A stretch of 64,000 bases of DNA from Marinobacterium sediminicola. Its GTDB lineage: Bacteria; Pseudomonadota; Gammaproteobacteria; Pseudomonadales; Balneatricaceae. The stretch's first letter is position 1. Each line of letters opens with the position of its first letter. Of this stretch, positions 39,942-45,317 are shown one piece after another. The translations under genes and the position numbers were made by a program. The stretch is taken from NCBI RefSeq assembly GCF_022343685.1, contig NZ_CP092123.1:868001-932000 (forward strand), in the 5' to 3' direction. The notes under the pieces were generated by a model. That model worked only from the letters and a program-made list of their open reading frames with translations. It was not told the origin of the DNA and ran no database searches.

Positions 39942-39974
39942 TTTCCGTTTATACAAGTGGAAGCAAAAACAGAT

Positions 39975-41057
39975 ATGACGCGCAAATTCAATTTCAGTGC
40001 AGGTCCAGCGGCGTTGCCGGAAGAGGTCCTGTTGCAGGCGCAAGCAGAGCTGCTGGATTGGCATGATAAAGGGCTCTCCATTATGGAGATGAGCCACCGC
40101 AGTGCCGAGTATGTCGGTGTGGCCGAGCAGGCCGAGCAGGACCTGCGTGACCTGATGGGCATCCCTGACAACTACAAGGTGCTCTTCCTGCAGGGTGGTG
40201 CGAGCGCCCAGTTCGCAATGGTACCGATGAACCTGCTACGTGGCGCGGCATCGGCTGACTATATCAATACCGGTATTTGGTCGAAGAAGGCCATCAAGGA
40301 GGCTCAGCGCTACGGCAACGTCAACATCGCTGCCAGCGTTGAGGCCAACAACTTCACTTCGGCACCGGCTCAATCCGAGCTGCAGCTGGATTCGAATGCG
40401 GCCTATCTGCACTACACCACCAATGAAACCATCGGTGGTGTCGAGTTTGACTATATTCCGGATAGTGGCAAGGTGCCGCTGGTTGCCGACATGTCCTCTG
40501 ATATTCTGTCGGCGCCCGTTGATGTCAGCCGCTTTGGCCTGATTTACGCCGGTGCACAGAAGAATATCGGTCCGGCAGGACTGACCGTAGTCATTGTGCG
40601 CGAAGATCTGATCGGCCAGACCCTGGCCGGTACACCCAGCATGTACGACTACAAAATTCATGCTGATGCCGACTCGATGAACAATACGCCGCCGACCTTT
40701 GGCTGGTATTTGGCGGGGCTGGTGTTCCAGTGGCTCAAGCGCCAGGGGGGGGTTGAGGCGATTGCAGAAGTGAACCGTCGCAAGGCCGCCAAACTCTATG
40801 CGGCTATTGATGGCAGTGACTTCTACGCCAACCCGGTCGCGATCAACAACCGCTCGATCATGAATGTTCCCTTCACCCTGGCTGATACGGCTCTGGAAAA
40901 GCGTTTTCTGGAGCTGGCTGAAGCCGAAGGACTGCTCAACCTGAAGGGACATCGTTCTGTTGGCGGCATGCGTGCCAGCATCTACAACGCCGTGCCGGAA
41001 GCAGCAGTGGATGCCCTGATCGACTTCATGCAGCGTTTCGAGAAAGAGCAGGCCTGA
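39975..41057 (+). CDS. serC: Phosphoserine aminotransferase SerC
   Basis: A 360-residue PLP aminotransferase for serine and pyridoxine synthesis. It starts RKFNFSAGPAALPEEVL, with EMSHRSAEY, LHYTTNETIGGVEF and the PLP-Lys in YAGAQKNIGPAGL. Length is as in E. coli (362). The ATG at 39975 is chosen from the family start; the ribosome site is weak. It begins the serC-pheA-hisC-tyrA/aroA-cmk-rpsA run, with pheA starting 1 base after its stop. Confidence 0.96.
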   Translation: MTRKFNFSAGPAALPEEVLLQAQAELLDWHDKGLSIMEMSHRSAEYVGVAEQAEQDLRDLMGIPDNYKVLFLQGGASAQFAMVPMNLLRGAASADYINTGIWSKKAIKEAQRYGNVNIAASVEANNFTSAPAQSELQLDSNAAYLHYTTNETIGGVEFDYIPDSGKVPLVADMSSDILSAPVDVSRFGLIYAGAQKNIGPAGLTVVIVREDLIGQTLAGTPSMYDYKIHADADSMNNTPPTFGWYLAGLVFQWLKRQGGVEAIAEVNRRKAAKLYAAIDGSDFYANPVAINNRSIMNVPFTLADTALEKRFLELAEAEGLLNLKGHRSVGGMRASIYNAVPEAAVDALIDFMQRFEKEQA

Positions 41058-41058
41058 G

Positions 41059-41949
41059 ATGAGTGCGAATCAACCGCCGGCGGGCGGAGCGCAGGAAGCG
41101 GAACTGCGGGTTCTGCGTGACCAAATCGACAGTGTCGATCGCCAGATCCATCAGTTGCTGAACGACCGTGCACGCCTTGCGCAGCAGGTTGCCGAAGTAA
41201 AGGAACGTTTTCGTCAGGGGGATGAAACGCCGGTGTTCTATCGCCCCGAGCGAGAGGCCCAGGTGTTGCGTGCGGTGATGGCTCGCAATGAAGGCCCGCT
41301 GTCGGATGCCACTGTCGGTCGGTTGTTTCGTGAAATAATGTCCGTATGCCTCGCGCTTGAAGAACCCCTCAAGATCGTATTCCTCGGTCCTGAGGGAACG
41401 TTTATCCAGCAGGCGGCACAAAAGCATTTCGGTCAGGCTGCCAAGTGTCAGGCACTCGACAGCCTTGAGCAGGTGTTCACCTCAGTCGAAAACGGTGAGG
41501 CGCACTATGCCGTCGTGCCGATCGAAAGCGAGGATGCAGGCCTGATTAGGCACACACTGGATCTTTTTCGTCGTTTCGATCTTTATATCTGCGGCGAAGT
41601 CGAGTTGTCACCTGACGCTGCGACAGGCCAACTCAACCGTTGTCCTCGTTATCTGGTCGTGGGGCGTGATGCCATTGGTCCCAGCGGCGAAGACAAAACC
41701 TCCCTGTTGTTGGTATGCCGTGATGAGCCGGGGGCCTTGCATGATCTGCTGGCTCCCTTCCATCGGCGTAAGATCAGTTTGACTCGTCTTGAGACTCGTA
41801 GCAGCGGGGAACATGACTGGAAAATGCTGTTCTATATTGATTTTGAAGGGCATGTCAGTGATAGCGGGGTTGCCGAGTTGCTGACCGAGCTGAATGACCT
41901 GCAGGTGGAGGTCAAACATCTGGGATCCTACCCGAAAGCCGTTTTGTAA
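41059..41949 (+). CDS. pheA: PheA-like protein: chorismate mutase and ACT domains, degenerate prephenate dehydratase
   Basis: 296 residues, against about 365 for gammaproteobacterial PheA. The AroQ chorismate mutase domain (about 13-100) looks whole: LRDQIDSVDRQIHQLLNDRA, VAEVK, VFYRPEREAQVL. The C-terminal ACT domain (about 213-296) keeps DEPGALHDLL and the end HLGSYPKAVL. The dehydratase part between them is damaged: GPEGTF is followed by Ile, the ENSxxG motif reads ESEDAG (156-161), about 70 residues are absent after ICGEVEL (177-183), and the catalytic TRF motif reads NRCPRYL. The frame is open and coding-like, so this is not a simple frameshift. I expect chorismate mutase activity without dehydratase activity. 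It lies between serC and hisC in the normal operon position. Confidence 0.85.
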   Translation: MSANQPPAGGAQEAELRVLRDQIDSVDRQIHQLLNDRARLAQQVAEVKERFRQGDETPVFYRPEREAQVLRAVMARNEGPLSDATVGRLFREIMSVCLALEEPLKIVFLGPEGTFIQQAAQKHFGQAAKCQALDSLEQVFTSVENGEAHYAVVPIESEDAGLIRHTLDLFRRFDLYICGEVELSPDAATGQLNRCPRYLVVGRDAIGPSGEDKTSLLLVCRDEPGALHDLLAPFHRRKISLTRLETRSSGEHDWKMLFYIDFEGHVSDSGVAELLTELNDLQVEVKHLGSYPKAVL

Positions 41950-41979: not shown

Positions 41980-43083
41980 ATGTCATGCGATTTTATGGCA
42001 CTGGCAACACCTGGCGTGCAGGGACTGCACCCCTATGAAGCCGGCAAACCGGTGGAGGAGCTTGAGCGTGAGCTGGGTATCAGCAACATCATCAAGCTGG
42101 CAAGTAATGAAAACCCGCTGGGTCCCAGCGCAATGGCCATGGCTGCGGTGGAAAGTGCACTGTCGGAATCGACCCGTTATCCGGATAGTAATGGCTTTGG
42201 TCTCAAGCGTGCTTTGCGGCAATACTACGGTCTGGCTGCCGATCAACTGACGCTGGGGAATGGATCCAACGATGTGCTGGAGCTCATCACACGCGCTTTC
42301 CTGAATCCGGATGATGAGGTGGTCTTTTCCGAGTATGCCTTTGCGGTCTACCCGATTCTGACTCAGGCCTGCAGCGCAAAAGCAGTCATTACACCTGCTC
42401 GCGACTACGGCCATAATTTACAGGCAATGGCCGAGGCCATTTCGGACAAAACCCGGTTGCTCTTTATTGCCAACCCAAACAACCCCACCGGCACGGCATT
42501 GATGCGCGAAGAGCTGGTGGCATTTCTGGATTCTGTTCCTCAGACGGTTATTGTCGTGCTCGATGAAGCCTACACCGAGTACGTTGAGTCAGCAGATTTT
42601 CCTGATGGTCTTGAGTTGTTGCCCCAATACCCCAACCTGATAGTTACCCGAACGTTTTCCAAAGCCTGGGGGCTGGCGGGGCTGAGAGTTGGCTTCGCCG
42701 CTGCGAATCCTGAAATCACAGACCTGCTCAATCGGGTAAGGCAGCCTTTCAATGTCTCTCATCTGGCGCTGGCGGCAGCCGAAGCGGTACTGTCTGATCA
42801 TGATTACCTGAAACGCAGCGTTGACCTTAACCGGGATGGCATGCAGCAGCTTGAAGAAGGGCTCAAATTGCAGGGGCTGGGTTTTATTCCCTCGTATGGC
42901 AACTTTGTCACCGTTGATGTGGCGCGCCCAGCTCAGCCTGTGTTCGAGGCGCTGCTGCATGAAGGCGTCATTGTGCGTCCATTGGCACCCTATCGAATGC
43001 CACAGCATCTCAGGATCAGCATCGGTCTGCCGGAAGAAAACGATCGCTTCCTGCGGGCCTTGAGGCAGGTGCTCGCGTGCTGA
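41980..43083 (+). CDS. hisC: Histidinol-phosphate aminotransferase HisC (HisC2 type)
   Basis: A 367-residue class I/II PLP aminotransferase. It starts MSCDFMALATPGVQGLHPYE, the form seen in this operon in pseudomonads, and has KLASNENPLGPS, ANPNNPTGT, LDEAYTEY, the PLP-Lys in TRTFSKAWGLAGLRVG, and the carboxylate-binding Arg in LRISIGLPEENDRFL. Proteins at this locus may also serve as aromatic aminotransferases, which would fit the neighbours. An AAGGATG box supports the start. It overlaps the start of tyrA-aroA by 7 bases. Confidence 0.93.
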   Translation: MSCDFMALATPGVQGLHPYEAGKPVEELERELGISNIIKLASNENPLGPSAMAMAAVESALSESTRYPDSNGFGLKRALRQYYGLAADQLTLGNGSNDVLELITRAFLNPDDEVVFSEYAFAVYPILTQACSAKAVITPARDYGHNLQAMAEAISDKTRLLFIANPNNPTGTALMREELVAFLDSVPQTVIVVLDEAYTEYVESADFPDGLELLPQYPNLIVTRTFSKAWGLAGLRVGFAAANPEITDLLNRVRQPFNVSHLALAAAEAVLSDHDYLKRSVDLNRDGMQQLEEGLKLQGLGFIPSYGNFVTVDVARPAQPVFEALLHEGVIVRPLAPYRMPQHLRISIGLPEENDRFLRALRQVLAC

Positions 43084-45317
43084 ATTACACCTCCACGTCA
43101 AAATATCGTCTCGAGCGTGTTCTGATTATTGGTCTGGGACTGATCGGCGGTTCACTGGCCAAGGCACTGAAAACCCGTTCCTGTGTCGGAGAAGTGGTGG
43201 GCGCCGACCGTAACCTGGATGAATGTCGTCTGGGGCTGCAGTTGGGTGTGATCGACAGGGTCGCTGAGGATCTGGCGGCAGAGGTCTCGAGAGCTGATCT
43301 GATCGTACTGGCAGTGCCTGTAAAGGCAATGGAAACCGTATTGGAGATGATCCGCCCTCATCTGAAGCTCCAAACCCTGGTGACTGATGTGGGCAGTACC
43401 AAGGGGAACCTGGTTCAAGCAGCGCGCCGAATTTTCGGACACCTGCCGGCAACGTTTATCCCAGGGCATCCCATTGCCGGTGCTGAAAAGAGCGGGGTGC
43501 GTGCGTCAGATGCAGACCTGTTCGAACATCATAAAGTCATACTGACCCCATTACCTGAAACCGACCCTAACGCCACTCTTGAGCTGGCGCGCCTTTGGCA
43601 GGCGGTTGGAGCAGAAGTGTTGCAGATGGAGGTGGGGCGGCATGATGAAGTCTTGGCGGCAACCAGTCATCTGCCACATCTGTTGGCGTTCTCACTGGTC
43701 GACACACTTGCACGAGAGGAAGAAAACCTCGATATCTTCCGCTACGCTGCCGGAGGCTTCCGCGACTTTACCCGTATTGCAGCCAGTGATCCCACCATGT
43801 GGCATGACATCTGTATTGCCAATCGGGACGCCATCCTGGCCCAAATTGATCGCTATACCCAAGGCGTGGCACGTTTGCGGCGTGCCATCGATCAGGGTGA
43901 CAGCGAGGGCATGCTGGGAATCTTTACCCGCGCCAAGGCAGCACGTGACCACTTTACCCGTTTGCTGAACAAGGCAAGCTATTCATCGAACGATCATACG
44001 AGAGCGGTAAACTTGCGCGCCCGAGGTGGAGCTCGTTTGAACGGTGAATTCAGTCTGCCCGGTGATAAATCGATTTCGCATCGAGCCATCATCCTTGCGG
44101 CGATCGCTGAAGGGGTAACAGACATTAACGGTTTCCTCGAGAACGAGGACAGTCTGGCGACTTTGCAGGCGCTGCGTGACATGGGTGTGGTGATCGAAGG
44201 ACCGCATCAGGGGCAGGTCAGGGTATTCGGGGTTGGCCTTAACGGACTAAAGCCGCCACCAGGACCCTTGTATCTGGGACATTCGGCTACCGCCATGCGT
44301 TTGTTGGCCGGTGTGTTGGCCGCTCAGTCATTTGATACCGAGTTGTTTGGTGATGAAGCCTTGTGCCTGCGTGACATGACAAGGGTTGCGGAGCCTTTGC
44401 GACAGATGGGGGCGTTGATCGAAACCGGTGAAAAAGGTGGTGCGCCCCTGCGTATAAAAGGTGGGCAGCAGTTGCGGGGGATCGATTACTGTCTGCCGGT
44501 ACCCAGTGCGCAGATCAAGTCATCCCTGCTGCTGGCCAGTCTTTGGGCCGAAGGTGAAACCTGCATTCGTGAGACGGTGGCGACACGGGATCATACCGAG
44601 CGCATGCTGGCAGCGATGGGGGCCGATATTGAGCGTACGGATGCCGGTATCAGGCTGGTTCCGGGCGATAGTTTGAAAGCCACCAACATTGATGTGCCAG
44701 GGGATATGTCCTGGGCGACACTGTTCATGCTTGCCGCCGGTTCTGAGCACAGCTGTGGCCGTTATCGATTGCGTGCCGTGGGGATTAATCCCAGCCGTAT
44801 CGGTGCCTTGGTGTTACTGCAGCAAATGGGTGCAGGCATAACGCTTGAGCATCGGAGAGAGCAACTGGGTGAGCCTGTTGCTGATCTGGTGATTGAGGCA
44901 GGACAGCGACTCAAGGGAATTGATGCTGATGCAGAGCTCTTGGCACCTGCTCTGGATGAGTTGCCACTGTTGCTCGTCGCGGCTGCGGTGGCAGAAGGCG
45001 AGAGCCGTTTCAGTGGTCTGGCCCGCTTGAAGCACAAGGAAGATGATCCTGTGCACAAAACCGTGACCTTGCTCGTTGAGCTTGGTGCGGCGGTTGAGCA
45101 GGATGAAGACAGTATCCGAATCACCGGCGGCAGCTTGCGGGCCGGTAGTGTCGATGCCAAGGGCAGTCTCCGAGTGGCAATGGCCCTGTTGGCAGCCGGT
45201 TTGTGCAGCGTTGAAACGATAACAGTGACCCAGAGTGGAACTCTGCTGGCAGCCTATCCGGATTTTGTTGAACAGGCGCAGCGGGTTGGTCTGAACGTTC
45301 ATAAGGAGGAGGACTGA
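43077..45317 (+). CDS. tyrA: TyrA-AroA fusion: prephenate dehydrogenase with atypical EPSP synthase domain
   Basis: 746 residues, GTG start. Residues 1-298 are a prephenate dehydrogenase with all marks: NAD site [36 protein letters not shown], the catalytic His region [12 protein letters not shown] and [17 protein letters not shown]. Residues about 312-746 have the EPSP synthase fold of the fused, class II-like type: [39 protein letters not shown]. Several near-universal residues differ: GHSATAMRL for GNSGTAMRL (401-409), LRDM for xRPM (431-434), KEDDP for KESDR (654-658, Arg to Pro), GSLRVAM for GDHRxAM and LAAYPDF for ATSFPGF. The fusion itself is normal for this operon; the AroA half may be weak, altered or inactive. 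Confidence 0.9.

Follow-up and report, generated by a model that had tools for sequence, protein, structure and literature searches.

The pheA gene of Escherichia coli encodes a P-protein (PRK10622) in which a chorismate mutase (CM) domain, a prephenate dehydratase (PDT) domain and an ACT domain are joined. TRF is critical for catalysis, and GALV and ESRP are the ligand motifs of ACT (PMC10845154). The dehydratase active site has been proposed to lie in the cleft between two lobes (PMC8192741), and the same work describes a GqqA crystal structure (7ALZ) from which subdomain 86-170 had been removed by proteolysis and whose remainder superposes at 0.76 Å. PMC1173090 lists, as event 16 of Table 6 in the enteric lineage, that the "pheA domain of aroQ-pheA becomes a pseudogene", and states that the ancestor of the alpha Proteobacteria lost the aroQ-pheA fusion.

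Here we describe a short pheA in Marinobacterium sediminicola that retains the mutase and ACT domains and has lost one lobe of the dehydratase. The window is the whole stretch of 64,000 nucleotides that was analysed (contig NZ_CP092123.1, positions 868,001 to 932,000).

The short pheA and its neighbours

The gene is a single ATG frame of 296 aa on the forward strand (41059-41949), within a cluster ordered gyrA-serC-pheA-hisC-tyrA/aroA-cmk-rpsA; the names of serC, hisC and tyrA-aroA are presumed from their sequences and from the gene order in PMC1173090, and those of the other members are presumed as well. Upstream on the same strand, serC (39957-41057) has a frame from GTG at 39957, with an ATG at 39975, and one base separates its stop from pheA, whose ATG starts two bases after the last stop base. 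Downstream, also on the forward strand, lie hisC (41980-43083) and a tyrA-aroA fusion (43077-45317) that carries no CM_2 domain of its own. The cluster order is that described for upper gamma Proteobacteria (PMC1173090). A promoter and terminator scan gave fewer matches than shuffled sequence, and a composition check showed no anomaly.

An AroQ chorismate mutase domain occupies residues 15-102 (41101-41364, forward; Pfam CM_2, 7.8e-23), with Pfam CM_2 complete at residues 19-102, and the CM part scores above the TIGR01807 cut-off (93.8 versus 69.55 bits). The residues aligned to R11, R28 and K39 of the E. coli CM are identical. The other site pairs were set by hand (E. coli R51/E52 to R65/E66 of the window protein, S84 to Cys97 and Q88 to Glu101), and R65/E66, Cys97 and Glu101 are invariant across the 37 sequences of alignment A1, long forms included.

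The dehydratase, by comparison, is represented by lobe a. Its leftover spans residues 103-184 (41365-41610, forward), where Pfam PDT matches residues 106-183 to profile positions 1-78 of 181, leaving positions 79-181 unmatched. GPEGTF is kept and followed by Ile, and ESEDAG replaces ENSxxG at residues 156-161 (41524-41541, forward), so that the Glu of ENS survives and the N and S are replaced. A scar of the deleted lobe b follows at residues 185-193 (41611-41637, forward), and then the closing strand of lobe a (41638-41667, forward), in which PRY (41644-41652) stands for TRF; in the surrounding NRCPRYL (residues 193-199) the T is therefore replaced. Equivalents of E. coli S208, Q215 and E232 fall within the gap, and H190 aligns to Ala. 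Counted from the G of GEVE as far as the TRF position, short PheA has 17 residues where 82 long sequences, among which some genomes figure twice, have 93-100 (median 95); about 78 residues are thus missing.

The ACT domain covers residues 212-296 (41692-41946, forward), as judged from Pfam ACT at 214-278 and the AF2 model. It retains GAL, and its ESRP-type motif reads ETRS. Because P-proteins of Neptuniibacter whose PDT motifs are intact have ETRS too, it argues neither for nor against Phe binding. Of the features that define a P-protein, short PheA has the AroQ mutase domain and lacks the two-lobed PDT with its ENS and TRF motifs.

An earlier note, made from the window alone, had reported a 296-residue frame in which mutase and ACT domains are kept and the dehydratase has collapsed. 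The frame and the Pfam matches bear this out, and ESEDAG, NRCPRYL and the Ile after GPEGTF are all found as it described them. Its "roughly 70" missing residues was correct as to the loss and slightly low as to the figure, and its claim that ACT keeps its motifs holds for the domain and for GAL, the ESRP-type motif reading ETRS. An assembly or sequencing error was considered and rejected, because the short form recurs in independently sequenced species, namely six further Marinobacterium species (L003-L008, 81-85% identity), with 26 of the 116 family genomes carrying it in all.

The deleted segment corresponds to a structural lobe

The AF2 model of short PheA (pLDDT 86.7, pTM 0.81) retains a five-stranded lobe a, with strands including residues 105-109, 129-133, 150-156 and 176-182, together with an ACT fold. 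Its top Foldseek match is 7alz_A, which is GqqA without lobe b (TMt 0.83). Ranks 1, 3 and 4 are all sparsely modelled chains: 7alz_A with 194 of 281 residues, 4lub_B with 190 of 276 (TMt 0.84) and 4lub_A with 188 of 276 (TMt 0.82). To judge from modelled chain length, 4LUB would lack the same lobe as 7ALZ. The ends left in proteolysed GqqA, V85 and H171, correspond to residues 185 and 193 of the window protein, which have seven residues between them; give or take a few residues, the natural deletion therefore took out the lobe that proteolysis removed. The alignment behind this mapping agrees with PMC8192741 at Y16, S17, V85, H171 and T174, and sets the ENS Glu at 56 where that source gives E55.

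A second dehydratase and a single mutase

The M. sediminicola genome encodes one other PDT, outside the window (P0002, 290 aa), which is complete, carries ENS, TRF and its own ACT-like end, scores above the PRK11899 equivalog cut-off (406.6 versus 359 bits) and is close to PDTs of solved structure (Brucella 6VH5 and GqqA). The earlier note had proposed that phenylpyruvate is made by another enzyme, either a separate dehydratase or a PheC-type cyclohexadienyl dehydratase, and this genome search found an enzyme of the first kind. Phe auxotrophy, another of its suggestions, is not favoured because the second PDT is complete. Orthologues of P0002 were matched in 114 of the 116 family genomes (E <= 2.4e-44; in two pieces in G013, partial in G100 and with two stops in G017), including all 26 with a short form; the short form is absent from 88 of these 114. 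The two genomes without an orthologue are G012, which is 75% complete and gave no match, and G065, a draft whose only match is its P-protein, a single case with ENS and TRF intact. All 50 P0002-type loci read, from 49 genomes, have an intact ENS, and all but that of G036, which has THF, an intact TRF.

Short PheA is the sole CM_2 protein of the M. sediminicola genome, the one genome in which AroH was also sought, and none was found. Together these results support the earlier interpretation of the protein as a probable chorismate mutase. In each of the 26 short-form genomes, likewise, there is no CM_2 other than PheA. Elsewhere in the family a second CM_2 occurs in group g16 (7/7 genomes, frames of 97-120 aa) and, more weakly, in G016 and G103, and two CM_2 matches of G017 are apparently pieces of one gene.

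Selection on the retained parts was proposed in the earlier note, and dN/dS run over the three parts gave low omega in each. Because synonymous sites are saturated (total tree lengths of 2.5-28 per codon), only the low level of omega is usable, as a rough guide: for CM, the PDT remainder and ACT it was 0.057/0.070/0.093 in g1 (serC 0.053, hisC 0.072), 0.012/0.019/0.044 among the g12 short forms (serC 0.040, hisC 0.063), 0.027/0.051/0.157 in g8 (serC 0.042, hisC 0.045) and 0.031/0.036/0.013 in the long forms of g7. Selection on ACT is not uniform, as its motifs are eroded in g8 and in L055.

Distribution and graded decay

Short PheA, which the earlier note had treated as a single oddity, is one stage of a graded process across related genera. 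The 26 short-form genomes fall in g1 (8/8), g12 (10/11), g7 (2/8) and g8 (6/6), with the genus Marinobacterium represented by eight of eight genomes, and the best match contains no stop codon in any of them. Across 390 genomes of the order, none of the matches listed from outside the family spans the deletion. A recheck covered 15 weak, short-frame or odd-scoring genomes of the order (the short frames of G173 and G204 lay outside it), and in eight of them the CM match sits in a frame of 363-397 aa. Three candidates were rejected as broken or cut genes: G167 (238 aa, divided between two contigs), G205 (where CM has a 108-aa frame to itself) and G315 (where CM lies on a different contig). No CM match was found in the rechecked G158, G194, G405 and G331.

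Motifs were read in 111 P-protein sequences, some genomes entering twice, and in another 20, which covers part of the P-proteins of the 116 genomes. Each of the long forms read that share a clade with short forms has lost ENS, with ENA in six of six from g7 and ESA in G077/L032 of g12. As the nearest full-length relatives thus have a broken ENS, their sequences suggest that motif mutations probably came first and lobe deletions later. Outside this clade, full-length P-proteins carry ARF in g16 (7/7) and g6 (3/4) and SRF in g5 (7/7), and many others read in the family keep both ENS and TRF; a second PDT therefore permits decay and does not force it. Among 29 short sequences, the distance separating GEVE and the TRF position varies between 7 and 19 residues. 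In the model of the eroded L055 (pLDDT 78.0), lobe a and an ACT-like fold can still be recognised.

Several other genes in the survey were unusual. ESS replaces ENS in two full-length Amphritea P-proteins (L020, L021), another possible start of decay. The full-length proteins of g16 (L268-L273, L148) have an altered SNxxA stretch beside their ARF, in genomes that all seven hold the second small CM_2 gene noted above. L132, from the 2.3 Mb genome G019, is full-length with GTAGSF, ENLSDN and an eroded ESRP motif (ASSS). At L144, L151 and L152 (G079, G080 and G082, Nitrincola group) the frame in the tyrA-aroA place is only 316 aa, and the fusion seems to be split or shortened there; the serC match of L152 sits in a 25-aa frame.

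Related proteins in another class

The NCBIfam profile PRK06034, named "hypothetical protein", matches short PheA at residues 15-159, below its cut-off (57.3 versus 311 bits). At 0.001 this profile matches 220 of 299 genomes of the phylum, two of the 299 exceeding the PRK06034.1-1 cut-off, and many of the 220 matches lie in frames of 360-420 aa, which suggests ordinary P-proteins. From the 220 we hand-picked 22 genomes in which the match reaches beyond CM, a non-random sample, and read 12 loci among them; we infer that these genomes are probably Alphaproteobacteria. The control set of eight genomes, also non-random, was chosen for full-length P-proteins.

The twelve loci encode proteins of 206-317 aa, with hisC adjacent in 11. 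Seven entered alignment A2, of which only L243 and L244 come from genomes above the PRK06034.1-1 cut-off; L245-L248, without a full CM half, and L253, short and without a hisC match, were left out. When the regions after CM of these seven were compared with those of the short forms, HHalign gave a probability of 97.2% (E 3e-11), with lobe b absent, against 0.3% for the reversed control and no more than 2.0% when columns were shuffled 20 times. In the three proteins that were run against Pfam, neither PDT nor ACT was seen. Ten of the 22 genomes have no CM_2 besides the PRK06034-like frame; the other 12 have additional CM_2 genes or, in the case of G618, a separate CM_2 alone.

A stand-alone PDT accompanies these proteins in 19 of the 22 genomes (E <= 2.2e-78; the G543 copy has a stop in the aligned stretch) and none of the eight controls. 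In the remaining three (g210) the PDT matches are shorter and the arrangement is re-split. In L246, L247 and L248 (G595, G506 and G756), a hisC-adjacent relic of 206-215 aa has no mutase half, and the same genomes hold a PDT match without an ACT part (frames of 197-235 aa) immediately ahead of a frame of 249-292 aa that bears CM; the pathway is apparently re-split in them. The pattern by class, with P0002-type PDT absent from eight of eight gamma genomes, a set biased by its choice for full-length P-proteins, and present in 19 of the 22 hand-picked genomes of the other class, hints at an old transfer into the family of Marinobacterium.

Like short PheA, these proteins combine CM with a leftover lobe a and an ACT-like end, lack lobe b and adjoin hisC; unlike it, they are much more eroded. 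By their sequences they resemble older remnants of this type, suggesting that aroQ-pheA was eroded rather than lost in the alpha lineage. On balance, we lean towards lobe b loss as a repeated route in company with a PRK11899-type PDT, with PRK06034-like proteins as an old end state in which remains of the fusion persist, often as the sole CM_2, and with lobe a and ACT as a lasting structural or allosteric module of the mutase.

Interpretation and alternatives

Short PheA is, with high probability, the relic of a P-protein, serving now as a chorismate mutase after loss of a redundant dehydratase. We infer that CM activity is retained and PDT activity lost. The AroQ domain would convert chorismate to prephenate, which TyrA would draw into the Tyr branch and the stand-alone PDT would convert to phenylpyruvate in the Phe branch. 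With a stand-alone dehydratase present throughout the family, the P-protein's own PDT domain would be redundant there, and its catalytic motifs may have mutated in several lineages. Lobe b, set apart from the rest of the fold, would then have been deleted in frame in some of these, and repeatedly so should the marker-gene tree be correct. Lobe a and ACT would stay folded and under selection as a scaffold for the mutase, and may sense Phe and place the mutase under its control. Given that ACT is eroded in g8, in L055 and among the PRK06034-like proteins, a scaffold is favoured over a sensor in those lineages.

Selection on the leftover, useless on its own for dehydration, together with the presence of both proteins in all 26 short-form genomes, could mean that lobe a and ACT serve beyond the mutase, as a subunit or Phe-responsive partner of the stand-alone PDT. 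We regard this as improbable, since that enzyme has its own ACT-like end, most genomes that encode it have no short form, and g8 retains only a degenerate ACT. A pseudogene on its way out, its frame open by chance, would suit the lost dehydratase motifs and the eroded ACT of g8 and L055. This fits poorly with a gene that supplies the only CM_2 in 26 of 26 genomes, has no stop in the best match of any of them, shows omega of about 0.06-0.09 in every part in g1, near that of serC and hisC, and keeps its CM site residues invariant throughout A1 (14 short forms; g8 and L055 are not in A1), and we rate it as very improbable. Survival of PDT activity through a rearranged site between subunits is scarcely credible: GPEGTF and the Glu of ENS are retained, but one of the two lobes that would frame the proposed site (PMC8192741) is gone, and neither the N and S of ENS nor the T of TRF has been kept.

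A separate matter, one of history and not of function, is how often the deletion occurred. The marker tree (GyrA, SerC, TyrA/AroA and Cmk) requires four changes between short and long, three of them forced by starred branches, and rejects a single clade of short forms (p-AU 1.6e-35, 18 short forms) as well as one clade of the g1, g8 and Nitrincola short forms without the long L032 (p-AU 1.0e-6). These clade tests used quick trees of 36 of 48 rows, the 12 left out being distant outgroups, long branches, a duplicate, the fragmentary short L127 and three near relatives. If a deleted lobe is unable to return, the four changes imply four to five losses. On the pheA tree alone two changes suffice and a single origin is not rejected (p-AU 0.105), and thus transfer of pheA is possible. 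A short form that arose once and spread by transfer or recombination of pheA is nevertheless a doubtful alternative to parallel deletions, given the marker tree and the variation among short forms from 7 to 19 residues between GEVE and TRF.

Comparison with known systems

In a literature search that covered few subscription journals, no title or abstract opening named the short form, and an earlier description is possible; PRK06034 was mentioned nowhere in the literature searched. The family offers what appear to be living stages of a fused enzyme losing one activity, from a broken motif through a lobe-exact deletion to erosion of the rest. A conserved NCBIfam "hypothetical" family gains a testable function, chorismate mutase, and an origin, and the target of ACT regulation after loss of its catalytic partner becomes testable as well. 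Annotation as bifunctional should be avoided for short pheA-type genes. If the relationship to PRK06034-like proteins is true, the loss of the aroQ-pheA fusion in the ancestor of the alpha Proteobacteria (PMC1173090) would need revision.

Short PheA shares the CM-PDT-ACT order of the E. coli P-protein and the gene cluster of P-proteins in upper gamma Proteobacteria (PMC1173090), and differs from the former in its missing lobe b and in the replacement of ENS and TRF. It scores far below the PRK10622 cut-off (112.5 versus 577 bits), which alone says little because the full-length relative L034 is also below it (155.5). As in event 16 of PMC1173090, the dehydratase part of a P-protein has been lost; that event, in the available text, is called a pseudogene, whereas the lobe-exact deletion, the kept ACT and the link to a second PDT are features of short PheA. 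A structural parallel is the SeGqqA crystal form (PDB 7ALZ), which likewise consists of PDT lobe a and ACT with lobe b absent. It was produced by proteolysis during crystallisation and has no mutase domain, and its parent GqqA, unlike short PheA, is a stand-alone PDT reported to complement (PMC8192741).
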